The translations under genes and the position numbers were made by a program. A stretch of DNA of 64,000 nucleotides from Sipunculus nudus. Taxonomy: Eukaryota > Annelida > Sipuncula > Golfingiida > Sipunculidae. The notes beneath the pieces were generated by a model. The model did not search any database. It was not told the DNA's origin and saw nothing but the letters and a program-made list of their open reading frames with translations. Shown piece by piece: positions 24,761 to 47,254 of this stretch (positions are counted from its first letter, which is position 1; the number at the start of each line of letters is the position of its first letter). The stretch covers positions 53,545,250 through 53,609,249 of the forward strand of contig CM049318.1 of NCBI GenBank assembly GCA_026874595.1, read 5' to 3'.

Positions 24761-25582
24761 ACCTTCAGCCTAGTCCCCTAACTTGTCTAGTAATTTGCTT
24801 CTTGTAATTTGTGCTGATCATGAAGGCCTAGTAAGATCTCGCACCAGTATAGTTGCCCGGAAGTGGCCTAGATAACAAAGAACTCTATCCAGGTGATAAG
24901 GAATATTGTAAATGAGCACATGACGTACTACGTCACGAGGGGCGGATCAAGGATTTAGAGAAAGGAGGGTATACAAAAGGTCCCAAAGTCAGGTGAAAAG
25001 GAAGGAATCGGGGGTGGGGGGGGTGGGGGGGGGAGGGGTTCGGCCGCAATATTTGTTCTGATACCCTTACCCTAAGGTTGCGGCAGGGGAAAAGGGGGGT
25101 GGGGTGGGGATGATTTTAATTGGCTAATTAACGATTAAGTTTTACATTCTTTATCTGCACATTTCCATAGAAGGCTTGGTCTTTACCCCGTTGGGTGACC
25201 ATTCATATGAAAGATCCTTTCATTGGATGTCTTTTGAGTTGACAAAGATGTAAATTTTACCAATAATAACGATTATAAGGTTATTCACCAGGACAGGACT
25301 CGACAACAATAATGGCCAACTTGCCCATGGGGTGGGAATATCTTGAGACCAAGATGTCCCTTGTCTGAAAGTTGCCCGCTGAGCCTACGATATGTCAGAC
25401 CATGCCCATGACATAATCCAAGGGAATATGACATACAGGATATATCATACAGGAAATATAGGAGCAGAGTATGTGTTATGTCATGATGTGTATAATGAGG
25501 TAAATAGAGTTTTCCACATCAGGGAATATTAAGCATTTAAATTTCGTCCAACCCATTTCAATGAACTAGAATTTAATATATA

Positions 25583-25628
<46 letters not shown>

Positions 25629-25742
25629 CAATGAGGGTTGGTCGGCAGATAACCACAGGTAATTCTGTTGAATGAAGACAGACAGACATAACCCAATACT
25701 AACACCAAAAAAACCATCAGAAATGTAAAAACGTAAGTCTAA
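24760..25742 (+). repeat. left flank of RAG-like locus, diverged inverted repeat of 47255-47790
   Basis: Several blocks match the reverse complement of the right flank: AAATTTCTTGCAAGA (24620; partner near 47920), GTGCTGATCA (about 24812; partner near 47740), ATATCTTGAGA (about 25340; partner near 47430), CCAAGGGAATAT (25420; partner near 47400) and TCATGATGTGTATAA (25480; partner near 47335). Identity is clearly lower than between the transposon arms. Poly-G-rich DNA lies at about 25010-25110 and an (AT)n tract at about 25585-25626. No gene. Confidence 0.7.
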
Positions 25743-25778
25743 CACTTACAAATGTTTGCAGTGTATTGCAACGAAGCT
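25743..25778 (+). repeat. RAG2L-side terminal repeat, left element
   Basis: These 36 bp, starting CACTTACAAATGTTTGCAG, are identical to the inverted 36 bp at the other end of the locus, and homology stops exactly before the CAC. CAC is the invariant start of RSS heptamers and of Transib and ProtoRAG ends; here the heptamer would be CACTTAC. A TTGCA...TGCAA inverted repeat sits just inside. Confidence 0.75.
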
Positions 25779-26019
25779 GTAAGCTCGTCTTTCACCCGGT
25801 CGCGACGCATGCGCAAACAGATATAGGTTAAACACGCCCATCGTGACCTGTCTCGACGCATGCACACATGTTTCTCAGATACTTCCGCCCAGACCAAAAC
25901 AACAACAGCTACACGTGAATCTGCGACGCGCCACATTTTGATCAGTTCATTATAGTTTTATCTAGTTTTATATAACTCAACACCCTTTTTGATTCGCGTT
26001 ATTGTGATATATCGAGGGG
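25779..26019 (+). promoter_or_regulatory. 5' region of the RAG2L-side gene
   Basis: Between the element end and the first ATG. It carries CGACGCATGC twice (about 25802 and 25853). The first copy, read on the minus strand, is TTTGCGCATGCG, a good match to the NRF-1 palindrome of TATA-less promoters. The first site is kept in the right arm (about 45897) and the second with one change. A promoter here is inference. Confidence 0.4.
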
Positions 26020-29000
26020 ATGACGGACCAGGCCGGGTCCGGGAAAAGGAAACGTGACGATTCGCCAGACCTGTTCGCTTCAAGCTCCAGCGAGACGGAG
26101 GGTAAGCTGCACTTCACGCTGTTTCGTTTTTCCGTTTACTCAGATCAGCTCATCATCAGTTTTACACTTAGATGTGTGTGTGTGTGTTAAACACCCACAA
26201 TATGTATCCATTCAAGGTCTGACAATAATTTATCGAGTGTCATCTTTCACTTAAAGTAACATCAATCAACTTACTATTACTGACAGTGACACTAGTACAC
26301 TGTTAATGAAGCATGAAACTGATCAGTGCATGAACAACGCCATTTTAGCCTATTGCTATTGCAAATATCACACCATGTAAGACCTTTTCCTTCATCTGTC
26401 ACACTTTGTTATGGTAAATGCAGATCCAGTCCCCTATAAATCTTCTCATTTGTTTATCAAGTTTGGTTGTTATCATTGTTTAAAATAATGATAAGACTTT
26501 AAGAAAGGCAATTAACAATGCCAGTGCAGTTGCTTGCAGATGTGGACCCTGAGCTTCAGTGTATACTTCACATCTGATATGAGATATTGCACTGTGTGTA
26601 TGGAAATATGTTTAAAAATTAATTATAAGTTTAAATGGAAAGTGTGTCTCACACTTTAAAATAAACATAGGAGAATTATCATCATTAAAAGTATGCACAT
26701 CATCAGGGTGCATAGAAAACTAAATCACATTTTTTTTCCAATCTTACAAGTGGGATGGTGAAAGAACGAGCAATACACATGGTGTACATAATAAAAAATA
26801 AGCCATACTAATGGAAAATGAATTTTTATTTCCGACTTTTTATTTTTGCAGGTCCATCCCAGGATTCCAGCAGTCAAGGCAGCAGCAGTGGAAAGACAGT
26901 GTCTCTGCTCAAAGGTAGGTAATATGATTATATATTATTTTCTGTTTTAATCATATATTAAGATTTTCTTTGACACTCTGTGTCAAATATATGTATGTAA
27001 ACACAGCAGATGATAATCACTAGGATGCATAAAGAAATAGTTTTTTTTTTAATTTTACAAATATAGTGGGATGAAACAACAAATTGCGTATAAAAAACAA
27101 GGTGTGCAAAATAATAATTTATTTCACATTCCTACTTGTAAGTAACATTTATTTTCTGTCCAATTTGCAGGTCCACTCCAGGATTCAAGCAGCCAAGGCA
27201 GCAGTAGTGGAAAGTCTGTGTCTCTGCTAAAAGGTAGGTAATGTAATAATTGTACTTTTTTTAGAGTTTTTCTTGTACACTCTTTGGCAAAGGATGCATA
27301 TATAGCAGAGGACTGTCACCAGGATGCTAAAGATAACTAAATTACATAAATATTTTCCCCCAAAATGTTACAGATGGAAGTTGCTTATGATAAACATGAG
27401 TGTGTTTCTTGCATACTCCATGCCAGAGTATGCACATTATTCAATTTACACCCATATACAAGTTCAAAATATTGTTGTATCCTTGGCCTTGTTAATTATG
27501 CACACAGTGTTCTAACATATCAGGTCAGCAGTGTATATTATGTTTAATGTATTTAAATAATTTTTTTGTTTATCACTTCAGCAGGCCCAGCAGGCTCATC
27601 TCAACATTCCAGTAGCCAAAGCAGTAGTAGTGAGAAGTCAGTTTCACTGCTTAAAGGTAAGCACAACAGTAACTTTATTGAATTAAGCCTGGCACAACTT
27701 TATGACTGTACCGAGTTAACTTAGACTGACACTGTTATTAAAAAGAGGGGAGTGGAACCTGTTTTTACCTTCAACTCTGTATTACTGGCACCTATTTTTG
27801 GTCATTATAGAAGGTCTCTTGCTTTTCCTACTACGGGCACCTCTCTTCCATGAAAAATATATTCTCCCGTCAGTGGCCTTAATTTTGAGGTTCTGCTATG
27901 TTTGTGTTTATTTAAAGCATCCAGATCAGTGTCAACTGGGTCACATGTCATTTAAATTCTGACAAACTGTTTGGGTGTCTGTGCATTTCATTGAGAATGT
28001 ATTTTCAATATTGTACCAGTATAGTGCAAATAGGCTAAACCTAATTAATTTTAACTTTCAAATTAAAGTGCAGTATTCAGTAAAAATGAATGTTTCACTG
28101 AGGCTTATTATTGTTGTGATGTTTTTTCAATTAACCATATTTGAACCATATTTGTCAGAATGCGACTAAGTAAATGCCCAGTGATATTTCCTTATCCGTG
28201 TCACCACTAAGAATGCACTGGTGTTGCTTTATTTAATATTACTACTAACAAAAGGTATAGTGAACTGTGGTATTATTATTAGAAGAGGCTGATAAATTGG
28301 CATCATATCATAAATGTATAGAAGAGGCAAGTAAATTGGCATGGTGTCATAAATGTGTACACATCTAAACAAGAAATGTTATCTAAGAATACCATACTGG
28401 AGATCCTCATAAAAATAAATGTTTCAGACACAATAAGATCTCATTTAATATTTATATTAAAACAGTAAACAATTACTTCTCTGCACCCACTAGGGTAAAC
28501 AGAATGGCCAGCCCTTGGCCTCTTTGGATGACAACTGTTTGAAAGTGGGGGTGGGACATATAGTCATTCCTTAGAAGCTAACCCTGTTTATATTGGGTAT
28601 TATCCTTAAATGTCAGCAGCATTTACATTGTAGTATATTTTGAAGTATTCATGATATTTTACTTACACTTTAAGTTTTATGCAAGTATATTTAAAGATTT
28701 AAAAATGACTGAAATAATAACAGTGTTTTTCAAATTTCATTTATTTGAACTGGTTTTATTTTTTTTCAGGACACCAGGTATCACTGCCCAAGCCTGACAG
28801 CAAGGAACACCCACTGGTAGTAAGCAGTTCCAGCCAGTCTGCAGAAGACCTTCCACAGGAAGACACAGACTGTGTGTGGTGCTTTAGCAGGCCAGATAGC
28901 CAGTGTCCGTACCATACCAGTCACAAAACACCCTCCAGTCCAAAGGCAGGAACCAGTACAGCAAGGGGCAATCAAGACTGTTTGTGGTGCAATCCTAAGC

Positions 29001-29146
29001 CAGACAGTCAGTGTCCGCACCATTCGGGTGGAGTGCCACCACTACCACTGCCGTCAAAACGGACCCAATTCTCAAGTGAAGAATACGACTGTCCTTTTTG
29101 TGATAGTAAAACTAAAGCCATCTGCCCTTTCAACAAGAAGAAATAG
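26020..29146 (+). CDS. Ser-rich, triple C-x2-C-x7-C-x2-H protein encoded upstream of RAG2L (five exons)
   Basis: Exons: 26020-26101, 26852-26914, 27171-27233, 27582-27656, 28770-29151, with TAG at 29144-29146. Every intron is GT-AG and phase 1. Exon 1 encodes an acidic/basic start with GKRKRDDSPDLF. Exons 2-4 are near-repeats of a QDSSSQGSSSGK...VSLLK module. Exon 5 encodes three zinc-type modules: DCVWCFSRPDSQCPYH, DCLWCNPKPDSQCPHH, and DCPFCDSKTKAICPF with Asn where the right arm has His. I know no family with this triple motif. The frame continues past the TAG in phase through the exon at 29695-29772 into the RAG2L kelch exon, and the TAG is also in the right arm. So it is either a separate third gene or an N-terminal extension of RAG2L closed by an old nonsense change. 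The frame is uninterrupted in this arm. Confidence 0.7.
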
Positions 29147-29694
29147 TCATGGTGAGATCTTTCTTAACAGTTTATTTTGTTGCATAGTTTCAGTCCTTAA
29201 ACATAATGTTCAATTGTTAGTGGAGTTCTTTTGATGATTTTGTAGACTTGACTTAATTGCTAGTCCATAGCAGCTGTAGGACATACATTTAGTATGGCAA
29301 TAATGCAGACTTTGCTAAAAAATAAGTCCGGCACAGTACAAGTCAAAGGTTTAATTAGTTATTGTCAGTAGGAAAAGCTAAATTTCTATTATCATTTCAC
29401 TGTAACAGAACCTTTTTATATTATTATTACACAAATCAGAAATGCGCAATCTGAAGAATGCATGGCTTTGCCATATGTGGAAGGGGGGGGGGGTTGAAGG
29501 CATACCCTAATAGAGGCAGACTGGCAGTCTGACTGGTACGGCCGTGTGTATGCATCAATTTATGTGTGCTTCAAGCTTTCTGTAAACTATTTTGTTTCAG
29601 ACATACATCAAAGACTTGAAAATAACTTAGTTTATAGACATCTATAAACACTAGCAGTTTGTTCTGAATTTATTTTTTTTTTAATTTTTTGTAG
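29147..29694 (+). other. intron between zinc-module exon and RAG2L exons
   Basis: Donor ATG|GTGAGA at 29152, acceptor TTTTTTGTAG at 29694. Contains a poly-G run at about 29484. Same organisation in the right arm (42017-42570). Confidence 0.6.
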
Positions 29695-29869
29695 TGTGAG
29701 CCAGATACATCCGAGACAAATCAACCATGGAAGATCAAAAGCTTACAGCAGCACACAACTGACAAAAGAAAAGTAAGTAGAAAGCGGCATGCACTTCATG
29801 TTGCGAATGCTGATGTATATCCTGCAGAAGGACACTCAGCATGTAAGATAAGTCCGAATCAGTGCGACC

Positions 29870-29938
<69 letters not shown>

Positions 29939-31141
29939 AAGGAGGGTGCCGGTTTACTGAGGACATGACTTGGTCTACAAGTTCCCACATTATCAGGTAT
30001 AAATTTTCTACAATGGGTGGAGATCTGGAGCTGAAAGAAGTCAAAGTGTTCAAAGAGACACATGGGGCCAATATACCACCATTGCTTAGCCCAAGTCTAG
30101 TAGAGGGAGAGACCAGTGGGACAAACCACCACCAGTTGATACTGTTTGGTGGTCTTGAACATGAGAGATATATACACACAAATGATCTATACATGCTGTC
30201 TTTGTCGGTTTCTGGACAAAATAATTAAATGACAGCCAGTCTTCATATGGGGCAGTCCCCTTCTGTCATGGGACCTGGCTTAGATTAGGTTCCTGTGCAA
30301 ACCGGGGATGTGCCATCAGGGCGATATGGGCGATCATTGACAAGAATTCAGTGGTGACATTGTGAACTATGCGGACCAGCTATTCAGGTCAACATGTGAT
30401 GACCAATGTGTGTACATATTGGAAGTCCAAGGCAACATAGCCAAATGGCAGAAGTTTCAAATGGGACCTGAGGTGACGAGAGCTTTTCACTCTGCGATTA
30501 TGGGCCCTAATCAAAATGTTTTCATCTGTGGGAGTATCAGAAATCTGGGCACAAACCCACAGCGGTTACCCATCACCCATGTCACTCTGTTGAAACTGTA
30601 TGATGGTGACATTGTCAGTTCAGTTTTGTTTAAAACTGGCAGTCCTACCCTGTACCTCTCTAGCCCTGCCATAAACATTGTAGGCACACAGATACTTGTG
30701 TATGGCGGGTATGGTTGTGATACCTCAGACGTAACTGGAGACAGGTATCCACCGGTTAGCAGTGCCCTGGTGACAATTGAGGGAGACTCGGGAGATTTTA
30801 AAATCACCCAGTTTGATGAACAATTTGCTTCAGCAGGTTGTTCTTTGATACAACTTGAACAAAATCTTTTCCTGATAGTAAGTGGGACATCTCAGGCTGT
30901 TAATGTCTTGAGCAAACAAATTTTGAAGCAGACACTTGTGCACATGACACTTGCAAAATTTCACAGTAAGCAGTATTACCAGTGTCTTGGATACAATGTG
31001 ACTTAATTTGTCAACAATGGTACCATCAGTTTTGTTTAAATCTTCTTCAGGTGCCCAAAGGTAAATACAAATATCCGAAATGTAAAAAAAAATCCAGAAA
31101 GAGGAAAGGTAAGCGCTAGGCCAAAGACCTGTTTCTACTAA
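29695..31141 (+). pseudogene. RAG2-like kelch protein, left copy
   Basis: Exon 29695-29772, an intron filled by (AT)n, then the main exon from 29937. RAG2 is the non-catalytic partner of RAG1, a six-bladed kelch propeller. Seen here: a kelch-type HHQLILFGGLEHERYIHTN block near 30130 that matches RAG2 blade structure, QNVFICGSIRN near 30515 and TQILVYGGYG near 30690. A Met at 29965 (MTWSTSS) could be its own start. Damage in this copy: Lys to TAA at 30226-30228, TAG near 30285, and a 44-bp deletion at about 30350, which removes a GGAM-type blade motif present in the right arm. TAA also follows GYNVT at 31004-31006. The tail is basic and ends TCFY. No PHD finger is visible, as in lancelet ProtoRAG and unlike vertebrate RAG2. 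Confidence 0.85.
29872..29936. repeat. (AT)n microsatellite in RAG2L intron
   Basis: About 64 bp of TA in the left arm; only about 14 bp at the matching site in the right arm (41829-41842). It has expanded or contracted since the arms split. Confidence 0.95.
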
Positions 31142-31169
31142 GATTTCAAATGCCTATGTTTATTACATT

Positions 31170-31427
31170 TCAATTTTTTGTATTGTCTGTATCAGATTTT
31201 ATTCTGTAATGTATCTTCAACTTGCTTGAGATGTTGCCATACATATTTCTTTTCTCAAAGGTATTTATTTTCAAATGAAGGGCATCAGTGTGAAATGTAT
31301 TTTTTGTAATTGCATCTTTGAATTTACTATTCAATATACAAGAATGAAATGTTAAGGCTGTTCTGAGGATTTTTTTAAAGTACTTTATTTTTAATATCTT
31401 GGACTTTTTCTGGTCTAAATGTGCCAA
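31170..31427 (-). other. conserved open frame of unknown status (left copy)
   Basis: 85 codons on the RAG1L strand between the two genes; the partner on the right is 40298-40576. Both share a LRTALTFHSCILNSKFKDAI segment and the same stop. The first ~20 codons differ because one base is gained or lost, so the start is not conserved. No family recognised; it may simply be conserved DNA antisense to RAG2L 3' sequence. Confidence 0.25.
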
Positions 31428-31639
31428 ACATTTGTGAAAACTTGCTCATGTGAATATTTAATTGTTCCTATGTGTATGTTAATTTTTTTTAATATATACT
31501 TAGAATATTAGATCACATTCAAATCCTCTGGGCAGGTTTTACAAATTGCTTATTTCAAGTAAATGTACCCAGCATGCAGCATAGTATATACTTTATAAGC
31601 AGGGTATTTTGTGTTCCTCACTGCTTTTCTTTTATGCAG

Positions 31640-31791
31640 ATATATGCCACACTAGTAAACATTCCATCAAGAGGTTATGGAAGAATAACCTGGATCAAGC
31701 ATATTGGCATATTCTAAAACTTTCAGACATCCACACCAGTGATGAATTTGAAACAGTCTTGGATAAATATAAACTGGTAAAGATAGGATGA
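31640..31791 (+). other. candidate terminal exon of RAG2L or small gene (left copy)
   Basis: Follows a TTTTATGCAG acceptor and encodes CHTSKHSIKRLWKNNLDQAY and on to DKYKLVKIG before TGA. The right arm (39956-40107) has the same acceptor and stop but a TAA replacing the Leu after KR. No family recognised. It could be the last exon of a RAG2L transcript. Confidence 0.35.
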
Positions 31792-32028
31792 TTTCATGGC
31801 CACTGATTTCTTGCTCACATAAAATTTTTCTATTGTTTCTTACATTAAATTAAAAACTAAATATAGAGAAGTAAAGAAGTTCAAAACATAAGCAACAGCT
31901 GAGTGATTTATTTCCTTTACCTCCAATTATAATATCTGGTTCACAAGGTATCACTTGCATGAAGCTTAAACTGATAACATTTGGTAAAGACGAAAAAGAA
32001 AAATATATATAGATATTTACGTCAATAA

Positions 32029-32476
32029 GACATGCTCAGATCTCAAAACAAGTCAGTATTTTGTATGCTTTACAGCTCATACTCATAATATTTTACATGT
32101 ATATTGTTACATATTTATTATTTATAGGTTGTAAACAAGTGAACGGGTTACACATATCAACTGAATCCATATATACACGTCAATATGACATACTGAGATC
32201 ACAAAACGAGTCAGTATTTTGTACGCTTTACAGCTCATACTCATAATCTTGTCATATATATTGTTACATATTTATTATTTATAGGTTTTATAACAAGCGA
32301 GCAGGTTTCTCATATTACATTCACACATATCAATATGACATACTTAGATCTCAAAACAAGTCAGTATTTTGTATGCTTTACAGGTCATACTCATAATATT
32401 GTACATGTGTATTGTTACATATTTATGATTTCTAGGTTGTAAACAAGTGAACGGGTTACATTTATCAAGTGATATA

Positions 32477-32515
<39 letters not shown>

Positions 32516-33030
32516 CTCTGAAGAAAAACAACACTATTAATTCACAACAGACTGTTTCACCATTCCATTTCGAAACTCTACTCTACTCTATATATATATA
32601 TATATATATATACGTCAATATGACATGCTCAGATCTCAAAACGAGTCAGTACTTTGTACGCTTAACAGCTCATACTCATAATATTGTCATATATATTGTT
32701 ACATATTTATTATTTATAGGTTTTACAACAAGCGAGCAGGTTTCTCATATTACATTTACACATATCAATATGACATACTTAGATCTCAAAACAAGCTAGT
32801 ATTTTGTATGATTTACAGGTCATTCTCATAATATTGTACATGTATATTGTTACATATTTATGATTTATAGGTTTTAACAAGTGAACAGGTTACATATATT
32901 AAGTGATATAAACATATATATAAATACGTCAATATGACATGCTCAGATCTCAAAACAGTCAGTATTTTGTATGCTCAACAGCTCATACTCATAATTTTGT
33001 ACATGTATATTGTTACATATTTATTATTTA
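32029..33030. repeat. tandem repeat between convergent RAG2L and RAG1L, left arm
   Basis: Six diverged units of roughly 150-165 bp. Each has GACATRCT(C/T)AGATCTCAAAAC followed by GTCAGTATTTTGTA and TGTTACATATTTATTATTTATAGG, with starts near 32029, 32187, 32336, 32621, 32769 and 32934. The larger gap holds (AT)n and the inverted 50-bp motif (32511-32560), both absent from the right arm. Confidence 0.8.
32511..32560 (-). repeat. 50-bp motif, copy 3 of 3
   Basis: Reverse of the motif at 12821 and 13017 with few changes, sitting between two (AT)n tracts (about 32480-32513 and 32590-32611). Present in the left arm only, so it arrived after the arms formed or was lost from the right. Confidence 0.8.
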
Positions 33031-33565
33031 TAGGTGATGTGACCATCTTAGATCATATTTGAGTTGAGAAGTGTTGTACGTATTTATGCATTTTTCATAG
33101 AATTATAGGGATAAGGTACATTTACACACATACATTTTTTGGCATAAAAACAAAATATTTTGTGATACATTTGAAGTCCATACATGATAATATAATATTC
33201 AAATATCTCAAAGGTCATATCATTATGTATTGCATACACTTTACATACCAAAATGGTGCTGTACATGTGTTTTTATAGTGTATAAGTAGTTTGACATTTT
33301 CTTTTCAGAAGATATATTAGTATTGTATATGAGTTTGCATACTTTAGTTAGCACTACGTTTTACATATATATATATATTCAAGTGTTTTCATATTTTCTG
33401 TATCAAGTCAATAAATGTGTAATTGTTTTGTATCACAATATTTTGCTTATGCTTCAGTGATTAAAACCATTTTCTATCTCATGTTGCTAAAAAAGATAAT
33501 GCTGATACAATGTGATTATTAAATCATTTTTAATGCACATGTTTTGTCTGTTGTGCAAGTGAAAA

Positions 33566-36450
33566 TCAAAAGATCTCATCTGACAGGCTCACTTGGATTT
33601 CCTTTGGGCAGGTTAGTTTATTATGTCCTGTGTTCCCACATGTTCCACATTTGTATTTCTGATGTGTCACTGTGGAGAGTGTCTGAAGGCTTGGTGAACT
33701 GTATAGCCAGTGAAATTTCAGGACATGCACTAATCCCTGATGTGTACTTCCCTTCGCTGATAGGTTTTTTCTGATATGCCTGAAGAGTTTATTTCCTACC
33801 TCCAGACCCTCTCCGCTCATTCCACCTATTGTGTGCAGGGAACTTTCATCGGATAGTAGTTCTTGTACATGTTCCACCAATTTGTGCATGTAGTTAGGCC
33901 ATTTGGCAAATTCAAAGTTTTCCTTCATCATTTTAGCAAATGACACTGCTATAGCTTTGTATCCACAAATCATGGCATGTGTTGGTTTGCTTGACCTGTA
34001 AACTTGTCTCATTTGGCGAAATTTGTCCATCACCAATAAAAAAAATTTTCTTGTCAGGTCCATCCTTGATAAGTGCAGCAACCTTGTTTGCATTCTCTGC
34101 CTGGAACAGCATCCTGGCATAATTTCCAGGCATTAGTATAATTTCAACACTGCCAATCTCCCTTCTGATGTGTTTATCAAATTTGGCCTCTGCATCTGCC
34201 AGGTTTGGTTTGATGGCAGCAGTCTCCTCCCATTGCCTTATGCCAGCAATCAATCTGATGATCAACTTCTTAAAAAACCTTGCCATGTTAATGTCTGCAT
34301 GGGTTGCATCTAGCATGCGTTCGTTTGGCTGAGACATGAGCAGTGGCACAGATTTCACCCCCTATGCCACTTTAGACATGACCTTGGTGCCAAGGTTGTC
34401 AGGATTGGCCTTCAGATAATCAGCTAAATAATGGGTTTCTTCCCTAGTTCTAACTATCTTGAAATCCTCCACATACTCTCTTGCTGAATGTTCTGTTGCA
34501 TGGCAAAGGGTGCAAATAAAACTTGACCCGGCACCCTGGAGTCCACCAAATGCACGGTCATATTTCTCATCTTCCATTGGTGAGAAAAAAAAAACAAACT
34601 CATATTACCTAAATAGGTTTTCTTTAACTTTAACAGACAGGAGTTTATTCCTTGAAGACGTCCTTTCAGTTTCAATAGGTGCAAGACAGATGGTTGCAGC
34701 AGACTTGTTGTTTTCATCAGCAAGTGCCTCCAGCAATGGACGGTTGGAACGGACTGAATTAGGTGTCTCACACTCGTACACAACAAATTTTTTGCCATCC
34801 ATATTAACATGTATTTCAAGTATACAAAAAGCAAATTGAAATGTTTTATCAGGCAATTTTCTGTTACCTTTCTCCTTATAAACAGAGCATTCCCCCATGC
34901 CATCTCTTCCATCTTTTATCACTGCTGTGAGCACTGCATCATGACTATCAAACTCCAGCATGTCCAGCCCTTCCTCTACCATAGGGTAAAATTCTTTTAA
35001 TGTTGAGGCCAATGCATCTGGATAGTGCCACCTCAGGCCTTTGCAGTTTGGAGGTAACAGTTCTGGAAATCCTGTTGAGAAATTTGCCATCACATCAACA
35101 GGCCTTGAATCCTTGGCAGGATTATGCTCAAAAGTCATATCATGTTCAGGGTCTGTTAAATTGTACTCACAAGCAGGGGGCACTAATTCAGCCTCAACCT
35201 TATTCAGTTCATCAGGGCTTGGAATCACAGTGTCATGTTTATGCTTTAAAATCTCATACTGTCTTCTGTACTTGGACTTACTCTGAAGACTCTCAACCCT
35301 TATTGCTAAGCTTTCTTTGGCTGTCATCTTACTTGATCCCATGGAATCCCACATATCCTGCAGTTTTAATGACAACTCAGTTTCATCCTGTAACTGAAGT
35401 TCATTTTTCAACATGAAAAATTAAACATCAACAATGTTTTCATAATGTTCAGTGCAATAGGAACGAACACTGTAGATCAAGTTCTTGATTCTATCCCTTT
35501 TCACACACCCTGGGTTTGCCTGGTTCAAGTTCATTTTTGTATCTCTTGGTCTGACAGAACGTTTCCTTGGCTCAGCTAGTAAAGCTCTGCTATACCTGCC
35601 ATAGGTACATATTTTTTCATGTTCACACAATTTATCAAACTTAAATTCTTTCTTACAACCTTTGTCAACATATCTGCACTTAACATGAATTTCTTCTGTC
35701 ACCATGGATACCATATGTGTAGCATCATATAAGTCATCATCCCCCATGACTGATCTGCATATTGGGCAAGCACCGCCATTACTAAGTAGACCTCTAACAC
35801 ATGTATAACAAAGAATATGTTTACATGATGTTATAAAGCGCTGTTTGTTACCACCTATGCATTCACAATATCCACATTTAACTCTGGCAGCAATGTGTTT
35901 TTCTACACACCTATCATATCTCACGTGTGTCTCACATGCCAATTTGTCTTCGGTTTGAAATGTCCCTGACCTGGAGATGTTGTTGCAAACAGTTTCAGTT
36001 TTTTTCCTTGCAGGAGGTGTGGTTGCCTTTCTTTCTAGGCTAGTAGGACTGGTTACCTTAGGTGTTTTTTTTTTGGGGGGGTGTTTTTCTCGGTGTTTTC
36101 CTCTTCTCCCAACCACAGATATTACAATTTCCAGAATGAGGCTCAAAATGAAAAACCTCAGTTATTCTTGTAGAAATCCTTTTTCTGTCTCACCTTCCCT
36201 TCTTAACCCTGTGCAGCATTCGGTCACAAGACAGACAAATAAATGGGGGATGAACACCTTGAATATCATTGTCCAGGTCATAATTGAAATGAAAAGCAAT
36301 GGTGCTTTTATAGTCTGAAATTGGAACGAGATTTCTCCCTTGTACTTGGCTGGTGGGCTTTCCACAAACTCGACAGTGAAGTAACAACTTTTTGATATGG
36401 TCATCAGGAATATCCCTTCTGCTAGATTCAGCTGATAGGCTCTCCATCAT
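33566..36450 (-). pseudogene. RAG1-like transposase, left copy, full length but broken
   Basis: About 960 codons, close to vertebrate RAG1 (about 1040). In order: an N-terminal zinc region (HCRVCGKP, then GVHPPFICLSCDRMLHR, then HSGNCNICG); a C3HC4 RING (CGYCEC, SCKHILCYTC, ACPICRS) with a following Cys/His finger; the core with RDGMGEC (first Asp, codon 34902-34904), MEDEKYDRA (second Asp, 34569-34571) and SGEGLEVGNKLFRHIRK (Glu, 33809-33811); and a C-terminal CGTCGNTGHNKLTC knuckle. These match RAG1 D600, D708 and E962. Lesions: TGA 36190-36192, frameshift in the T10G7 tract 36065-36081, TAA 35421-35423, TAA 34605-34607, TAG 34362-34364, and +1 in the A8T4 tract near 34040. The main body has no obvious intron. 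An acceptor-like TTTATTTTCAG just before the ATG suggests a lost 5' exon. Converges with RAG2L. Confidence 0.93.
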
Positions 36451-36708
36451 ATTCTAATATTTCTCTGAAAATAAAAAAGTTAAACATATTTTGGAATGTT
36501 ATATATATAGGGGAATATTTTATAAACCTACACAAATAAGGCCAAAAAATTTAAAGGTATGATTCTCAGGCACCGCCCGCATTAATTTTAAACCCCCGCA
36601 TCAAAAAATTTATTTTGATTTTCAACAGAAACTTACCGATTTTGAGTTTCAGCCGCTAGGATATTTCGTTCAAGTAGATAAAATCATACAATTTCCTTTG
36701 TTATGGAA
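36451..36708. repeat. junction between the two arms, with interspersed-repeat sequence
   Basis: Contains GGTATGATTCTCAGG (near 36556) and, near 36664, a TTCGTTCAAGTAGATAAAAT block ending CAATTTCCTTTGTTAT. Both recur around 58200-58420, the first in inverted sense, and a GCGGGCGG stretch is shared with about 50030. Homology to RAG1L begins just after, at about 36709. No terminal repeat like that at 25743 is present. Confidence 0.55.
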
Positions 36709-38271
36709 CATGAACATGATATGACTTTTGAGCATAATCCTGCCAAGGATTCAAGGCCTGTTGATGTGATGGCAAATTTCTCAACAGGATTTCCAGAACT
36801 GTTACCTCCAAACTGCAAAGGCCTGAGGTGGCACTATCCAGATGCATTGGCCTCAACATTAAAAGAATTGGACCCTATGGTAGAGGAAGGGCTGGACATG
36901 CTGGAGTTTGATAGTCATGATGCAGTGCTCACAGCAGTGATAAAAGATGGAAGAGATGGCATGGGGGAATGCTCTGTTTACAAGGAGTAAGGTGACAGAA
37001 AATTGCCTGATAAAGCACTTCGATTTGCTTTTTGTATACTTGAAATACATGTTAATATTGATGGCAAAAATTTGTTGTGTACGAGTGTGAGACACCAAAT
37101 TCAGTCCGCTCCAACCGTCCATTGCTGGAGGCACTTGCTGATGAAAACAACAAGTCTGCTGCAACCATCTGTCTTGCACCTATTGAAACTGAAAGGACGT
37201 CTTCAAGGAATAAACTCCTGTCTGTTAAAGTTAAAGAAAACCTATTTAGGAAATATGAGTTAGTTTTTTTTTTCTCACCAATGGAAGATGAGAAATATGA
37301 CCGTGCATTTGGTGGACTCCAGGGTGCCGGGTCAAGTTTTATTTGCACCCTTTGCCATGCAACAGAACATTCAGCAAGAGAGGATGTGGGGAATTTCAAG
37401 ATAGTTAGAACTAGGGAAGAAACATATTATTTAGTTGATTATCTGAAGGCCAATCCTGACAACCTTGGCACCAAGGCCATGTCTAAAGTGGCAAAGGGGG
37501 TGAAATCTGTGCCACTGCTCATGTCTCAGCCAAAGGAACGTATGCTAGATGCAACCCATGCAGACATTAACATGGCAAGGTTTTTTAAGAAGTTGATTAT
37601 CAGATTGATTGCAGGCATAAGGCAATGGGAGGAGACTGCTGCCATCAAACCAAACCTGGCAGATGCAGAGGCCAAATTTGATAAACACATCAGAAGGGAG
37701 ATTGGTAGTGTTGCAATTCTACTAATGCCTGGAAATTATGCCAGGATGCTGTTCCAGGCAGAGAATGCAAACAAGGTTGCTGCACTTATCAAGGATGGAC
37801 CTGACAAGAATAATTTTTTACTGGTGATGGACAAATTTCGCCAAATGAGACAAGTTTACAGGTCAAGCAAACCAACAAATGCCATGATTGGTGGATACAA
37901 AGCTATAGCAATGTCATTTGCTAAAATGATGAAGGAAAACTTTGAATTTGCCAGATGGCCTAACTACATGCACGAATTGGCGGAACATGTACAAGAACTA
38001 CTATCCGATGAAAGTTCCCTGCGGAGAGGGTCTCGAGGCAGGAAATAAACTCTTCAGGCATATCAGAAAAAAACTTTCAGCGAAGGGAAGTACACATCAG
38101 GGATTAGTGGATGTCCTGAAATTTCACTGGCTATACAGTTCACCAAGCCTTCAGACTCTCTCCACAGTGACACATCAGAAATACAAATGTGGAACATGTG
38201 GGAGCACAGGACATAATAAACTAACCTGCCCAAAGGAAATCCAAGTGAGCCTGTCTGATGAGATCTTTTGA
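36709..38271 (+). pseudogene. RAG1-like transposase core, right copy, N-terminus missing
   Basis: Begins at the HDMTFEHNPAKD point of the left copy, so the N-terminal zinc region, RING and linker (about 435 codons) are absent. First Asp codon at 36955-36957, second at 37287-37289, and the SxxGEGLEAGNKLFRHIR glutamate and C-terminal knuckle (CGTCGSTGHNKLTC) are present. Lesions differ from the left: TAA at 36988-36990, one A lost at about 37066, and a 20-bp deletion at 38021/38022 just before the catalytic-Glu motif, shifting the frame. Between 37077 and 38048 the frame is open and lacks the three left-copy lesions of that interval. Residues are otherwise nearly all the same. Confidence 0.92.
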
Positions 38272-38463
38272 ATTTCACTTGCACAACAGACAAAACATGT
38301 GCATTAAAAATGATTTAATAATCACATTGTATCAGCATTAACTTTTTAACAACATGAGATAGAGAAAGGTTTTAATCGCTGAAGCATAAGCAAAATATTG
38401 TGATACAAAAAAACACACATTTATTGACTTGATACAGAAAATATGAAAACACTTGAAAACATA

Positions 38464-38505
<42 letters not shown>

Positions 38506-39955
38506 AAACGTAGTGCTAACTAAAGTATGCAAAACTCATATACAATACTAATATATCTTCTGAAAAGAAAATGTCAAACTACTTATACACTATAAAAACA
38601 CATGTACAGCACCATTTTGGTATGTAAAGTGTATGCAATACAAACTGATATGACCTTTGAGAAATTTGTATATCATATTGTCATGTATGGACTTCCAATG
38701 TATCATTAAATATTTTGTTTTTATGCCAAAAAATGTATGTGTGTAAATGTACCTTATCCCTATAATTCTATGAAAAATGCATAAATCCTTACAACACTAC
38801 TCAACTCAAATATGATCTAAGATGGTCACATCACCTATAAATAATAAATATGAAACAATATACATGTAAAATATTAATAGTATGAGCTGTTAAGATTACA
38901 AAATCCTGACTTGTTTTGAGATCTGAGCATGTCATATTGACGTATATATATGTTTTATATCACTTAATATATGTAACCTGTTCACTTGTTAAAGCCTATA
39001 AATCATAAATATGTAACAATATACATGTACAATATTATGAGAATGACCTGTAAAGCATACAAAATACTGGCTTGTTTTGAGATCTAAATATGTCATATTG
39101 ATACGTTTAAATGTAATATGAGAAACCTGCTCGCTTGTTGTAAAACCTATAAATAATAAATATGTTACAATATATATGACAATATTATGAGTATGAGCTG
39201 TAAAGCGTACAAAATACTGACCCGTTTTAAAATCTAAGTATGTCATATTGACGTGTATATATGGATACAGTTGATATGTGTAACCCGTTCACTTGTTTAC
39301 AACCTATAAATAATAATATGTAATAATATACATGTACAATATTATGAGTATGACCTGTGAAGCATAAAATATACTGACTTGTTTTGAGATCTAAGTATGT
39401 CATATTGACGTATATATATATGTTTAGATCACTTGATATATGTAACCCGTTCACTTGTTTACAACCTATAAATCATAAATATGTAACAATATACATGTAC
39501 AATATTATGAGTATGACCTGTGAAGCATACAATATACTGACTTGTTTTGAGATCTAAGTATGTCTTATTTACATGTGTAGATGTAATATGAGAAACCTGC
39601 TCGCTTGTTGTCAAATCTATTTACGGATAAACAAATTGACCTGTTTTATGTAGTTCAAGGAAGCACCTACTGCTCTTGACCACTTTAAATTTTACACAAA
39701 ACTCTTTCATTCTATATGAATATTAAATGAAAAATCTTGCTCAGTTTTCTTTTTCGTGTTTACCAAATGTTATCAGTTTAACCTTCATGCAAGTGGTACC
39801 ATGTGGAACAGTTATTAAAACTGGAGGTAAAGGAAATAAATCACTCAGCTGTTGCTAATGTTTTGAACTTCTTTATTTCTCTATATTTAGTTTTTAATTT
39901 AATGTAAGAAACAATAGAAAAATTTTATGTGAGCAAGAATTCAGTGGCCATGAAA
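38272..39955. repeat. intergenic tandem repeat between convergent genes, right arm
   Basis: Mirror of the left-arm region. (AT)n lies at about 38467-38502. Units with GAGATCTAAGTATGTCATAT occur near 38919, 39079, 39231, 39384 and 39549, spacing about 150-165 bp. Five units against six on the left; no 50-bp motif. Confidence 0.75.
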
Positions 39956-40107
39956 TCATCCTATCTTTACCAGTTTATATTTATCCAAGACTGTTTCAAA
40001 TTCATCACTGGTGTGGATGTCTGAAAGTTTTAGAATATGCCAATATGCTTGATCCAGGTTATTCTTCCATTACCTCTTGATGGAATGTTTACCAGTGTGG
40101 CATATAT
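39956..40107 (-). other. candidate terminal exon (right copy)
   Basis: Partner of 31640-31791, same acceptor (TTTATGCAG) and same TGA, but with an in-frame TAA after IKR. Status as coding sequence is uncertain. Confidence 0.3.
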
Positions 40108-40297
40108 CTGCATAAAGGAAAAGCAGTGAGGAACACAAATTACCCTGCTTATAAAGTATATACTATGCTGCATGCTGGGTACATTTACTTGAAATAAGCA
40201 ATTTGTAAAACCAGCCCAGAGGATTTGAATGTGATCTAATATTCTAAGTATATATTTCAAAAATTAAATATACACATAGGAACAATTAAATATTCAC

Positions 40298-40576
40298 ATG
40301 AGCAAGTTTTCACAAATGTTTGGCACATTTAGACCAGAAAAAGTCCAAGATATTAAAAATAAAGTAATTAAAAAAATCCTCAGAACAGCCTTAACATTTC
40401 ATTCTTGTATATTGAATAGTAAATTCAAAGATGCAATTACCAAAAATACATTTCACACTGATGCCCTTCATTTGAAAATAAATACCCTTGAAAAAAGAAA
40501 TATGTATGGCAACATCTCAAGCAAGTTGAAGATACATAACAGAATAAAATCTGATACAGACAATACAAAAAATTGA
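40298..40576 (+). other. conserved open frame of unknown status (right copy)
   Basis: 93 codons, the longer version of the frame at 31170-31427, starting MSKFSQMFGTFRPEK. It lies antisense to the RAG2L 3' part and on the same strand as RAG1L. No family recognised. Confidence 0.25.
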
Positions 40577-40604
40577 AATGTAATAAACAAATGCATTTGA
40601 AATC

Positions 40605-42016
40605 TTAGTAGAAACAGGTCTTTGGCATAGCGCTCACCTTTCCTCTTTCTGGATTTTTTACATTTCGGACATTTCTATTTACCTTTGGGCACCTGAAGAA
40701 GATTAAAAAAAAACTGATGGTACCAATGTTGACACATAAAGTCACATTGTATCCAAGACACTGGTTATACTGCTGACTGTGAAATTTTGCAAGTGTCATG
40801 TGCACAAGTGTCTGCTTCAAAAATATGTTTGCTCAAGACATTAACAGCCTGAGATGTCCCACTTACTATCAGGAAAAGATTTTGTTCAAGTTGTATCAAA
40901 GAACAACCTGCTGAAGCAAATTAAAATCTCCCGAGTCTCCCTCAATTGTCACCAGGCACTGCTAACCGGTGGTTACCTGTCTCCAGTTACGTCTGAGGTA
41001 TCACAACTATATCCGCCATACACAAGTATATGTGTGCCTACAATGTTTATGGCAGGGCTAGAGAGGTACAGGGTAGGACTGCCAGTTTTAAACAAAACTG
41101 AACTGACAATGTCACCATCATACTGTTTCAACTGAGTGACAGGGGTGATGGGTAACCGCTGTGGGTTGGTGCCCAGATTTCTGATACTCCCACAGATGAA
41201 AACATTTTGATTAGGACCCATAATCGCAGAGCGAAAAGCTCTCATCACCTCTGGTCCCATTTGAAACTTCTGCCATTTGGCTATGTTGCCTTGGACATCC
41301 AATATGTTCACACATTGGTCATCACATGTTGACCTGAATAGCTGGTCCGCATAGTTCACAATGTCACCTCTGGACTTCACCATGGCACCTCCAATTAAAA
41401 TGTAACTATTACACTGAATTCTTGTCAATGTGTGCCCGTATCGCCCTGATGACACATCCCCGGTTTGCACAGGAACCTTACCTAAGCCAGGTCCGATGAC
41501 AGAAGGGGACTGCCCCATATGAAGACTGGCTGTCATTTTATTATTTTGTCCAGAAACCGACAAAGACAGCATGTATAGATCATTTGTGTGTATATATCTC
41601 TCATGTTCAAGACCACCAAACAGTATCAACTGGTGGTGGTTTGTCCCACTGGTCTCTCCCTCTACTAGGCTTGGGCTAAGCAATGGTGGTATATTGGCCT
41701 CATGTGTCTCTTTGAACATTTTGACTTCTTTCAGCTCCAGATCTCCACCCATTGTAGAAAATTTATACCTGATAATGTGGGAACTTGTAGACCAAGTCAT
41801 GTCCTCAGTAAACCGGCACCCTGCTATTCTATATATATATAATGGTCGCACGTATTCGGACTTATCTTACATGCTGAGTGTCCTTCTGCAGGATATACAT
41901 CAGCATTCGCAACATGAAGTGCATGCCGCTTTCTACTTACTTCTTTTGTCAGTTGTGTGCTGCTGGAAGCTTATGATCTTCCATGATTGATTTGTCTCGG
42001 ATGTATCTGGCTCACA
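40605..42016 (-). pseudogene. RAG2-like kelch protein, right copy
   Basis: Exon 41941-42016 and main exon from 41828 downwards. The kelch frame is open from 41828 to 40973 and keeps the segment deleted on the left (RYGHTLTRIQ then ILIGGAMVKS, the RAG2-type GDV..RYGH...GG blade). Lesions: the upstream exon is two bases shorter than on the left, so it no longer joins in phase; Tyr to TAA at 40973-40975; one C lost near 40955. The C-terminal frame resumes and ends at the same TCFY stop (40605). No PHD finger. Confidence 0.85.
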
Positions 42017-42570
42017 CTACAAAAAATTTTAAAAAAAAAAATTCAGAACAAACTGCAACTGTTTATAGATGTCTTTAAACTAAGTTATTTTCAAGTCTAT
42101 GATGTATGTCTGAAACAAAATAGTTTACTGAAAGCTTGAAGCACACATAAATTGATGCATACACACGACCGTACCAGTTTTATTTATCAGACTGCCAGTC
42201 TGCCTCTATTAGGGTATGCCTTCAACCCCCCCCCCCCCCCTTCCACATATGGCAAAGCCATGCATTCTTCAGATTGAACATTTCTGGTTTGTGTAATAAT
42301 AATATAAAAAGGTTCTGTTACAGTGAAATGATAATAGAAATTTAGCTTTTCCTACTGACAATAACTTATTAAACCTTTGACTTGTACAGTGCTGGACTTA
42401 TTTTTAGCAAAATCTGCATTATTGCCATACTAAATGTATGTCCTACAGCTGCTATGGACTAACAATTAAGTCAAGTCTACAAAATCATCAAAAGAACTCC
42501 ACTAACTATTGAACATTATGTTTAAGGACTGAAACTATGCAACAAAATAAACTGTTAAGAAAGATCTCAC

Positions 42571-45500
42571 CATGACTATTTCTTCTTGTGGAAAGGGCAG
42601 ATGGCTTTAGTTTTACTATCACAAAAACGACAGTCGTATTCTTCACTTGAGAATTGGGTCCGTTGTGACGGCAGTGGTGGTGGTTGCACTCCACCCGAAT
42701 GGTACGGACACTGACTGTCTGTCTTGATTGCCCCTTGCTGTACTGGTTCCTGCCTTTGGACTGGAGGGTGTTTTGTGACTAGTATGGTACGGACACTGGC
42801 TATCTGGCCTGCTAAAGCAGCACACACAGTCTGTGTCTTCCTGTGGAAGGTCTTCTGCAGACTGGCTGGAACTGCTTACTACCAGTGGGTGTTCCTTGCT
42901 GTCAGGCTTGGGCAGTGATACCTGGTGTCCTGGAAAAAAAATAAAACCAGTTCAAATAAATGAAATTTGAAAAACACTGTTATTATTTCAGTCATTTCTA
43001 AATCTTTAAATATACTTGCATAAAACTTAAAGTGTAAGTAAAATATCATGAATACTTCAAAATATACTACAATGTAAATGCTGCTGACATTTAAGGATAA
43101 TACCCAATATAAACAGGGTTAGCTTCTAAGGAATGACTATATGTCCCACCCCCACTTTCAAACAGTTGTCATCCAAAGAGGCCAAGGGCTGGGCATTCTG
43201 TTTACCCTAGTGGGTGCAGGGAGTAAATTTTTACTGTTTTAATATAAATATTAAATGAGATCTTATTGTGTCAGAAACATTTATTTTTATGAGAATCTCC
43301 AGTATGGTATTCTTAGATAACATTTCTTGTTTAGATGTGTACACATTTATGACACCATGCCAATTTACTGGCCTCTTCTATACATTTATGATATGATGCC
43401 AATTTATCAGCCTCTTCTAATAATAATACCACAGACAGTTCACTATACCTTTAGTTAGTAGTAATATTAAATAAAGCAACACCAGTGCATTCTTAGTAAT
43501 GACATGGATAAAGAAATATCATTGAGCATTTACTTAGTTGCATTCTGACAAATATGGTTCAAATATGGTTAATTGAAAAAACATCACAACAATAATAAGC
43601 CTCAGTGAAACATTCATTTTTACTGAATACTTCACTTTAATTTGAAAGTTAAAATTAATTAGGTTTAGCCTATTTGCACTCTACTGGTACAATATTGAAA
43701 ATACATTCTCAATGAAATGCACAGACACCCAAACAGTTTGTCAGAATTTAAATGACATGATACCCAGTTGACCCTGATCTGGATGCTTTAAATAAACACA
43801 AACACAGCAGAACCTCAAAATTAAGGCCACTGACGGGACAAATTATTTTTCATGGAATAGAGAGGTGCCCGTAGTAGAAAAAGCAAGAGACCTTCTATAA
43901 TGACCAAAAATAGGTGCCCGTAATACATAGTTGAAGGTAAAAACAGGTTCCACTCCCCTCCTTTTAATCACAGTGTCAGTCAAAGTTAACTCGGTACAGT
44001 CATAAAGTTGTGCCAGGCTTAATTAAATAAAGTTACTTTTGTGCTTACCTTTAAGCAATGAAACTGACTTCTCACTACTACTGCTTTGGCTACTGGAATG
44101 TTGAGATGAGCCTGCTGGGCCTGCTGAAGTGATAAACAAAAAATTATTTAAATACATTAAACATAATATACACTGCTGACCTGATATGTTAGAACACTGT
44201 GTGCATAATTAACAAGGCCAAGGATACAACAATATTTTGAACTTGTATATGGGTGTAAATTGAATAATGTTGTGAAAATTTAATGTGCATACTCTGGCAT
44301 GCAGTATGCAAGAAACACACTCATGTTTATCATAAGCAACTTCCATCTGTAACATTTTGGGGGAAATTATTTATGTAATTTAGTTATCTTTAGCATCCTG
44401 GTGACAATCCTCTGCTATATATGCATCCTTTGCCAAAGAGTGTACAAGAAAAACTCTAAAAAAGTACTATTATTACATTACTTACCTTTTAGCAGAGACA
44501 CAGACTTTCCACTGCTGCTGCCTTGGCTGCTTGAATCCTGGGGTGGACCTGCAAATTGGACAGAAAATAAATGTTACTTACAAGTAGGAATATGAAATAA
44601 ATTATTATTTTGCACACCGTGTTTTTCATACGCAATTTGTTGTTTCATCCCATTATATTTGTAAAATTAAAAAAAAAACATTTCTTTATGCATCCTAGTG
44701 GTTATCATCTGCTGTATATACATACATATATTTGACAAAGAGTGTGCAAGAAAAACTTAATATATGATTAAAACAGAAAATAATATATAATCGTATTACC
44801 TACCTTTGAGCAGAGACACTGTCTTTCCACTGCTGCTGCCTTGACTGCTGGAATCCTGGGATGGACCAGCAAAAATAAAAAGTCGGAAATAAAAATTCAT
44901 TTTCCATTAGTATGGCTTATTTTTAATTATGTACACCATGTGTATTGCTTGTTCTTTCCCAATCCCACTTGTAAGATTGGGAAAAAAATGTGATTTAGTT
45001 TTCTATGCACCCTGATGATGTGCATACTTTTAATGATGATAATTTAATTCTCATATGTTTATTTTAAAGTGTGAGACACATTTTCTATTAATTTTTAAAC
45101 ATATTTCCATACACACAGTGCAATATCTCATATCAGATGTGAAGTATACACTGAAGCTCAGGGACCACATCTGCAGGCACCCGCACTGGCATGGTTAATT
45201 GCCTTTCTTAAAGTCTTATCATTATTTTTTAACAATGATAACAACCAAACTTGATAAATGAGAAAATTTATAGGGGACTGTATCTGCATTTACCATAACA
45301 AAGTGTGACAGATGAAGGAAAATAAGGTTTTACATGGTGTGATATTTGCAATAGCAATAGGCTAAAATGGCGTTGTTCATGCACCGATCAATTTCATGCT
45401 TCATTAACAGTGTACTAGTGTCACTGTCAGTAATAGTAAGTTGATTGATGTTACTTTAAGTGAAGGATGACACTCGATAAATTATTGTAAGAACTTGGAT

Positions 45501-45692
45501 GGATACATATTGTGGGTATTTAACACACACACACATTTATCTAAGTGTAAAACTGATCATGAGCTGATCTGAGTAAACGGAAAAACGAAACAGCGTGAAG
45601 TGCAGCTTACCCTCCGTCTCGCTGGAGCTTGAAGCGAACAGGTCTGGCGAATCGTCACGTTTCCTTTTCCTGGACCCGGCCTGGTCCGTCAT
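42571..45692 (-). pseudogene. Ser-rich / triple zinc-module gene, right copy
   Basis: Exons 45692-45611, 44866-44804, 44548-44486, 44123-44049, 42929-42571, the mirror of the left gene with the same lengths for exons 1-4. Lesions: the acceptor of exon 2 is TTGCTG instead of TTGCAG, and a 23-bp deletion in exon 5 removes the two leading Cys of the second zinc module and shifts the frame. The third module ends CPFH, showing that the Asn in the left copy is derived. The TAG after KKK is shared with the left copy. Confidence 0.7.
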
Positions 45693-45933
45693 CCCCTCGA
45701 TATATCACAATAACGCAAATCAAAAAGGTTGTTGAGTTATATAAAACTAGATAAAACTATAATGAACTGATCAAAATGTGGCGCGTCGCAGATTCACGTG
45801 TACGTGTTGTTGTTTTGGTCTGGGCGGAAGTATCTGAGAAACATGTGCCCATGCGTCGTGACAGGTCACGATGGGCGTTTATAAACTATATCTGTTTGCG
45901 CATGCGTCGTGACCGGGTAAAGGACGAGCTTAT

Positions 45934-45969
45934 AGCTTCGTTGCAATACACTGCAAACATTTGTAAGTG
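45934..45969 (-). repeat. RAG2L-side terminal repeat, right element
   Basis: Reverse complement starts CACTTACAAATGTTTGCAG and is identical to 25743-25778 over 36 bp. The next bases outward (AGCGA) do not match the left flank. Confidence 0.75.
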
Positions 45970-47254
45970 AGCGACGGATAGGGTATTGCCATTACTGGCC
46001 GATAGAGTTCGGGGCAACAGGTGATAATGCAACTGGGACACTTCGTATCACATCTTTATGTGTCTAAAACAAAATCACGTAAGAAGACCCACCAGCTATA
46101 CCTGCTATGTAAATGGGAAGTGGATATGAGTAACCGGTTTCAATTTTGCATTGCATGTGAAATGTCAGTTTTGGGACCTTTTTCCGATTATTGAAGTGGT
46201 GACAGATATTCAACGGACTTAATACGGATTTAATACGGACTCTCTCTAGTTAGCCTTGAATTATTACTATTTATTTAGGTTATTGGTTTTAAAGGACTCT
46301 TGTTGAACTGTGACAGTGGTGGTATCCAGAATCAAAGCCTAGGATCCGGACACTCTGGTACTGTACCTTCTTATTGTTATACTGTGTATTTGTATTAATT
46401 TAGAGCATTCTAATGTTAGGCATGTTCTAAGAATAATTTATAATTATTTGTTAAAAAAAACACTGACTTCTTTATTCATTCCTCTAGACATTTCCTGCTG
46501 CCTAGTCTTACAGAATCTATTTTTTTTTATCTCCGTAACAAAATTTTTGCTGAACACGATTACGTGATCTGTTCATATTAGGTTCCGTAACATTGGATTA
46601 TACTATTTCACCTCACATAGAGTAAGGTACCACAGGTACTGCAATCTGCAGGCAAAACATAGCAAAGATAATTAAACCAGTAAAAAATGCCATGTGAAAA
46701 CATCAGTCTGAAAATAATTCTATTTAATATAGTATTTATAAATATCCCTTTGCTCTAAATGGCAAATGATTTGAAGCTAATGTACTTTACAGACTAATCT
46801 CAAGAAAAGTCTGTAACATGTGGTGAAGAAAGCAGCAGCGGTTTTAAATATATTTGGTAAAAGAATTGGGCGGAACGGACCAAAGAACAGATTTGAAACA
46901 TTTTATTAGTCCTTCCTCCTTATGATTGGGACTAATAAATAACAAAATGCTGTGGACTACTTACTTTTTTTTGCTTTTCTGGTCCTCGAAACCATTGCTA
47001 CTATTCACCGATCCTGTTGGTGACAACCGGAAATATGTCTAACATAATTGGATACTTGAATGCTTTTTATGGAGCATGTTGTTAGTTAGTCATTATAGTC
47101 CTTCCTAACTGTATCAAATCCATATTAACGTACACGATAGTGTGCTTTATGCATACAGTGAGAAAGTCCCAGCATTCATTTAAACTTAGGTTTGCCTTTT
47201 TGGATTATAATGCTGAAAATTCTGCAGGATTTGCTAGCTTTAATATTAAGTCTG
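45970..47254. repeat. right flank with interspersed repeat
   Basis: About 1.3 kb with no counterpart beside the left end. Roughly 46590-47050 resembles 51110-51640 in the same orientation (shared GTCTGAAAATAATTC, GGTAAAAGAAT, and a TTAGTAGTC/TTAGTCCTTCC region). No gene seen. Confidence 0.6.

Follow-up and report, generated by a model that had tools for sequence, protein, structure and literature searches.

The window analysed here, 64 kb of the 1.43-Gb Sipunculus nudus assembly (C13:53545250-53609249), contains two RAG-like (RAGL) transposons, called A and B, each carrying RAG1L and RAG2L sequence and lying in mirror orientation to the other. The RAG transposon family gave rise to the human antibody-gene recombinase, and a first-pass annotation of the window had taken the pair for a layout new to the family. 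A nested insertion of B in A, followed by a deletion, very probably explains the mirror pair, which would make it a rearranged nest left by ordinary transposon history and remove the supposed new architecture. The mirror layout is of less interest than the RAGL family to which A and B belong, an intact copy of it elsewhere in the genome (C10) and a third open reading frame (ORF3) upstream of RAG2L.

Comparison of the window with itself by BLAST gives a broken inverted repeat (25743-35148 versus 36711-45969, in pieces of about 92-98% identity) around a single-copy centre (35149-36710). The inverted homology halts exactly at CAC-starting transposon ends on both outer sides, where A and B each agree with the published end consensus of protostome elements in 16 of 17 bases (14 of 17 for the next best CAC sites in the window). 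Beyond the end of B at 45969 lie bp 1-93 of a RAG1L-side end (46062-45970), reading inward, and then TCTAA, the same five bases that stand on the other side of the 20,320-bp unit 25743-46062. In four relatives elsewhere in the genome (C7, C10, C3a and C3b) the RAG1L-side end (TIR5), which begins CACATACAGATGTG, runs on uninterrupted past bp 93, the point at which B interrupts it in the window; of the first ~1.18 kb of C7, C10 and C3a, only bp 1-93 have a counterpart in the window. Ends of the family start CACATACAGAT on the RAG1L side and CACTTACAAATGTTTGC on the RAG2L side, and perfect 5-bp target duplications flank all five elements that have both ends (A; C7, GGATG; C10, ACACA; C3a, GGGTT; C3c, ACCAG). 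Because bp 1-93 of the end are present and TCTAA stands on both sides, 25743-46062 is one insertion, that of A, with B inside it; the first-pass annotation had drawn the unit as 25743..45969, but its right end is 46062.

A and B are each cut short on the inner side at a single junction (36707/36711), where the 5' region of A stops within an insert shared with C3b and is joined through a few filler bases to the RAG1L of B near codon 432. About 4.2 kb is missing there (~1.6 kb of A including the insert, judged from C3b, and ~2.57 kb of B, judged from C7), namely the RAG1L start and RAG1L-side end of B and the 5' region of A from bp 94. We infer the following order of events: A would have landed by cut-and-paste, duplicating the 5-bp target TCTAA; the closely related B would then have entered A by ordinary two-ended transposition, 93 bp inside the RAG1L-side end and in the opposite orientation; and a deletion closed by end-joining would have taken the ~4.2 kb, including the RAG1L-side end and ~432 RAG1L codons of B and the 5' region of A from bp 94, leaving a remainder that resembles a mirror pair with its RAG2L-side ends outward. 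Several points weigh against this account: the five bases outside 45969 (AGCGA), a candidate target duplication of B, have no surviving partner for comparison; a 5-base match is expected by chance alone about once in 1000; the arrangement of A and B is known from the assembly alone; and the sister relationship of A and B would fit a single-step local event from a sister copy too.

A tree of six copies (7084 of 13674 columns, those gap-free in all six) groups A and B as sisters at a bootstrap of 100, the shared stem being 0.003 long and the tips 0.017; a RAG1L tree rooted on C3c gives the same pairing (support 96). Given this pairing and its short stem, B would derive from A's own source or from a sister copy of A, and would have arrived not long after A itself. 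The substitution difference between A and B (331/8971, 3.69%) is no lower than that between B and C7 (326/9237, 3.53%); A and C7 differ by 476/10746 (4.43%, inflated by a misaligned 5' block), and C7 and C10 by 96/12208 (0.79%). In 1-kb blocks the A-B difference is 2.2-4.9%, except for 9.0% in a minisatellite block, and no near-identical tract is present. Both of the origins put forward at first pass, an inverted duplication of one element and two insertions followed by homogenisation, were rejected because of the end positions, the target duplication and the divergence. A foldback (palindromic) duplication, which is extremely improbable, would yield inverted arms around a single-copy centre and sister copies, but it would not halt exactly at transposon ends on both sides, nor would it place a 93-bp RAG1L-side end and a target duplication outside one arm; the A-B divergence is that of separate copies, and the arms do not have the character of a block duplicated as a whole and identical at birth. 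Gene conversion between two side-by-side insertions, for which even less can be said, would suit two RAG2L-side ends in opposite orientation, but not the A-B and B-C7 differences or the lack of a near-identical tract, nor TCTAA enclosing the whole unit with the displaced end inside. A 20-kb composite moved by its two RAG2L-side ends was likewise rejected, as the five bases at 25743 (TCTAA) and 45969 (AGCGA) differ and those around 25743-46062 agree. An aborted or one-ended insertion in a single step, in which a sister or related copy was linked to A at bp 93 by its RAG2L-side end while its other end, unintegrated, was trimmed and joined to the 5' region of A, is unlikely but deserves consideration: the absence of a RAG1L-side end from B, the filler at the junction and the short stem of the A-B pair all fit it, and its end product would be the same as that of nested insertion and deletion, but it needs a rarer reaction that nothing observed requires.

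RAG1L and RAG2L are broken in A and in B alike, on which the first-pass annotation had been silent. Compared with the C10 copy, the RAG2L of A is interrupted by three stops, a deletion of 44 bp and a further frameshift (for the other genes see the table), and stops and indels private to one copy occur in A as well as in B. An assembly artefact, whether joined haplotypes or a chimeric read, is thus very unlikely; inverted pairs are a known artefact type, but the arms are 3.7% apart and separately damaged, and the nesting and the target duplication form a coherent picture of a kind that an artefact would not give. Summed over codons readable in at least four copies, the private changes are 58 nonsynonymous (N) and 14 synonymous (S) in A, and N 35 and S 12 in B, versus an expectation of ~3.7:1; in RAG1L alone, those of B (N 13, S 9) are low, at 0.38 of expectation. 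Because of this low ratio, constraint may have acted on part of the branch leading to B, in which case an active lineage would have copied B before it landed. The low ratio, the catalytic codons kept in A and B and the open ORF3 of A would accord with a functional or domesticated locus, but the broken genes of both copies and the summed private changes make such a locus most improbable. Judged by their reading frames, neither A nor B can now make the RAG1L/RAG2L transposase.

Protein searches bear out the RAG-like identity given at first pass, with matches to vertebrate RAG1 and to amphioxus RAG1L and RAG2L. The RAG1-type core is present in both arms, in mirror orientation: Pfam RAG1 matches A in two pieces (2.2e-16 and 8.7e-17; a third, 3.2e-05, is under the cut-off) and B at 9.3e-32, and the closest solved structure is amphioxus RAG1L (6b40; 3.9e-47 for a piece of A, 3.7e-80 for a piece of B). 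The catalytic D, D and E codons, described at first pass as present twice, are at 34904, 34571 and 33802 in A and at 36955, 37287 and 38035 in B; they read GAT, GAT and GAG in A, B, C10, C3a and C3b, C7 has GAT at the Glu position, and the fragment C5 has no base there. A kelch-type RAG2L gene convergent with RAG1L, also noted at first pass, is found in both arms (from reading frames and tblastn matches to both copies; a piece of the B protein matches 6b40 RAG2L at 3.8e-12). The N-terminal RING finger, said to be present twice, is single: it falls within the single-copy centre and is part of A, which has the N-terminal region, RING and core in pieces, and B, which lacks the first ~432 RAG1L codons, has the core only. 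The intact RAG1L of C10 aligns to residues 16-931 of vertebrate RAG1, N-terminal region included, and matches Pfam RAG1 (5.8e-68), RAG1_imp_bd (1.1e-08) and zf-C3HC4 (above cut-off). The RAG2L of C7, 99% identical to that of C10, matches amphioxus RAG2L and has a PHD-like finger at its C-terminal end (Pfam RAG2, 26.9 bits, cut-off 21; Kelch_3, above cut-off; PHD, 22.0 bits, under the cut-off of 24); a 27% identical RAG2L relative aligns over the whole length and carries a PHD. These matches support the assignment of the window copies to RAGL transposons and not to Transib, which is ruled out because the RAG1 N-terminal region and RAG2L are both present, or to an unrelated kelch protein. NCBIfam gave for RAG1L and RAG2L only rad18, matching the RING far under its cut-off; none of seven other window ORFs matched Pfam above cut-off; no tRNA genes were found in the window; and two stretches of viral contigs fit a RAG1L pattern, of which none was confirmed.

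Besides A and B, a RAG1L probe matched five further places in the same genome at 92-97% and six at 67-74%, a total of at least 13. Of the 11 other matches, six were examined with their flanks (C10, C7, C3a, C3b, C5 and C3c), the five left out being weaker. C7, C10 and C3a are elements with both ends (12.7, 12.2 and 11.1 kb); C3b has no RAG2L-side end, and C5 is a fragment that entered only the distances, the codon check and the RAG1L tree. C3c (C3:57259001-57285000; 9.9 kb, both ends) represents a second RAGL subfamily, 73% identical in RAG1L. Among the six family copies compared, C10 (C10:30480001-30507000) alone has RAG1L and RAG2L both open; the RAG1L of C7 has one stop besides its altered catalytic codon, C3a and C3b are frameshifted, and the RAG2L of C3c is interrupted. 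The 0.79% difference between C7 and C10 suggests that the family moved fairly recently, and C10, with its two known genes, ends and target duplication intact, offers material for testing how a RAG transposase of this kind operates. A minisatellite of differing size among copies lies between RAG1L and RAG2L (32000-33035 in A, 38833-39620 in B). The insert in the 5' region (36544-36707), ~690 bp long in C3b, is 77% identical to 58236-58422 of the window and looks like a dispersed repeat.

ORF3 is found in both RAGL subfamilies (A, B, C7, C10, C3a, C3b and C3c). In A and C7, five predicted exons with GT-AG sites and a single phase lie between the RAG2L-side end and RAG2L and would encode 218 amino acids, with a basic N-terminus, serine-rich exon repeats ending VSLLKG and three zinc-finger-like C-x2-C-x7-C-P-x-H modules (three in C7 and C10, two in C3c). 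Exon 1 keeps 22 of 27 residues in C3c, with nonsynonymous (dN) and synonymous (dS) divergences of 0.10 and 1.01 over 27 codons only; the last exon is 38% identical to that of C3c over 96 codons (dN 0.69; dS 2.09, near saturation). Two bases separate the ORF3 stop from an ATG with its GTGAGA donor in A, B, C7 and C10. The ATG is the same in C3a and C3b, but their donors are altered (GTGACA and GTGATT); C3c has nine bases between stop and ATG and, one codon further, a GTAAGC donor. A splice from this ATG to the kelch exon would supply an in-frame RAG2L start codon; the kelch exons of C7 and C10 have no in-frame ATG of their own until ~70 residues in, and the 27% identical RAG2L relative starts at the corresponding place. 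A direct splice of ORF3 exon 1 to the most evident acceptor of the kelch exon was rejected for phase mismatch, which the ATG after the ORF3 stop does not have; a later acceptor within the kelch exon would fit the phase of exon 1 (hand count).

The balance of this evidence tips slightly towards a RAGL transposon carrying three genes, the third encoding the 218-residue protein upstream of RAG2L, which may be a cofactor or regulator of transposition. As the RAG2L start is at the end of the same exon, 2-9 bases past the ORF3 stop, one mRNA would make both proteins. Against a third gene stand a 5-base insertion in exon 3 of C10, which breaks the simple ORF3 reading although RAG1L and RAG2L are intact there; the failure of a simple pattern search to find the middle exons in C3c; the frameshifted ORF3 of B and the N in place of H in the third module of A; and the shortness of the exon 1 test. 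None of 36 candidates in a protein collection (E <= 0.1) was a relative of the last exon, and the spliced protein had no Pfam match above cut-off (best PSI_Plexin-B, 20.0 bits versus 27) and no credible match among solved structures (best E 0.27). No description of a third RAGL gene or of a nested RAGL pair was found in the literature searched (titles and abstract openings, subscription papers being mostly outside its scope), and the words "third", "ORF" and "nested" do not occur in the main text of PMC7204232. If the three-gene reading is true, a third gene can be co-transcribed within RAG transposons, and whether other lineages have it or have lost it would inform the question of how the RAG1-RAG2 pair was tamed for immunity.

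Table 1. Features of the nested RAGL copies, in window positions.
Feature	Position	Strand	Basis or remark
Target site duplication of A, left copy, TCTAA	25738..25742		Same as 46063-46067
RAG2L-side end (TIR3) of A, CACTTACAAATGTTTGC	25743..25759	+	Same 17 bases in C7, C10, C3a, C3c; 16/17 to protostome consensus
RAGL copy A, kept part	25743..36707	- (RAG1L strand)	Alignment with C7, C10, C3a, C3b
ORF3 of A, predicted, 5 exons, 218 amino acids, open	26020..29146	+	Exon 1 and last-exon modules conserved in C3c
ORF3 exons of A	26020-26101, 26852-26914, 27171-27233, 27585-27656, 28770-29146	+	Predicted
RAG2L of A	29149..31119 (end approximate)	+	Predicted start codon 29149-29151 and donor; kelch exon from 29695
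RAG1L of A	33566..36450	-	Four in-register stops, four frame-changing indels versus C10
RING finger, one copy only	35754..35876	-	Pfam zf-C3HC4 23.5 bits (cut-off 21) in piece 35424-36161
Part of insert in 5' region of A, also in C3b	36544..36707	-	92% to C3b
Deletion junction A/B, few filler bases	36704..36716		Alignment with relatives
RAGL copy B, kept part, no RAG1L-side end	36711..45969	+ (RAG1L strand)	Self-BLAST, alignments
RAG1L of B from ~codon 432	36711..38271	+	Start missing, one stop, two further frameshifts versus C10
RAG2L kelch exon of B	40630..42016	-	Three stops, five frame-changing indels versus C10
ORF3 of B, last exon frameshifted	42579..45692	-	Comparison with relatives
RAG2L-side end (TIR3) of B	45953..45969	-	Consensus match
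First 93 bp of RAG1L-side end (TIR5) of A, separated from A by B	45970..46062	-	93.5-95.7% to bp 1-93 of C7, C10, C3a, C3b
Target site duplication of A, right copy, TCTAA	46063..46067		Same as 25738-25742

Diverged repeats (~72-81%) are shared between the two flanks of the unit (24163-24799 with 47742-48135; 25397-25535 with 47290-47433); these matches are inverted and are probably dispersed repeats unrelated to the insertion. A perfect tandem array with a 42-bp period (61816-62277) lies within a 225-codon open frame.

The protostome RAGL transposons described in the main text of Martin et al. 2020 (PMC7204232) resemble the elements reported here in their convergent RAG1L and RAG2L, CAC ends and 5-bp target duplications, in the N-terminal zinc regions, RING and Cx2Cx3GHx4C tail of RAG1L, and in the kelch and PHD of RAG2L. 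In contrast, the window copies are nested, truncated and broken, and the conserved ORF3 upstream of RAG2L is unmentioned in that text. Amphioxus ProtoRAG (6b40) is the best solved match (RAG1L, 9e-151; RAG2L, 1.5e-19), but its RAG2L is without a PHD according to the same text, whereas the RAG2L end here is PHD-like. The AanRAGL element of an alga, as described in PMC9435367, likewise has asymmetric CAC ends, 5-bp duplications, RAG1L and RAG2L, but its RAG2L lies upstream of RAG1L in the same direction, and the two genes are convergent here. Transib shares the CAC ends, 5-bp duplications and a related core, but has neither the RAG1 N-terminal region nor RAG2L (PMC7204232, main text), both of which are found here.

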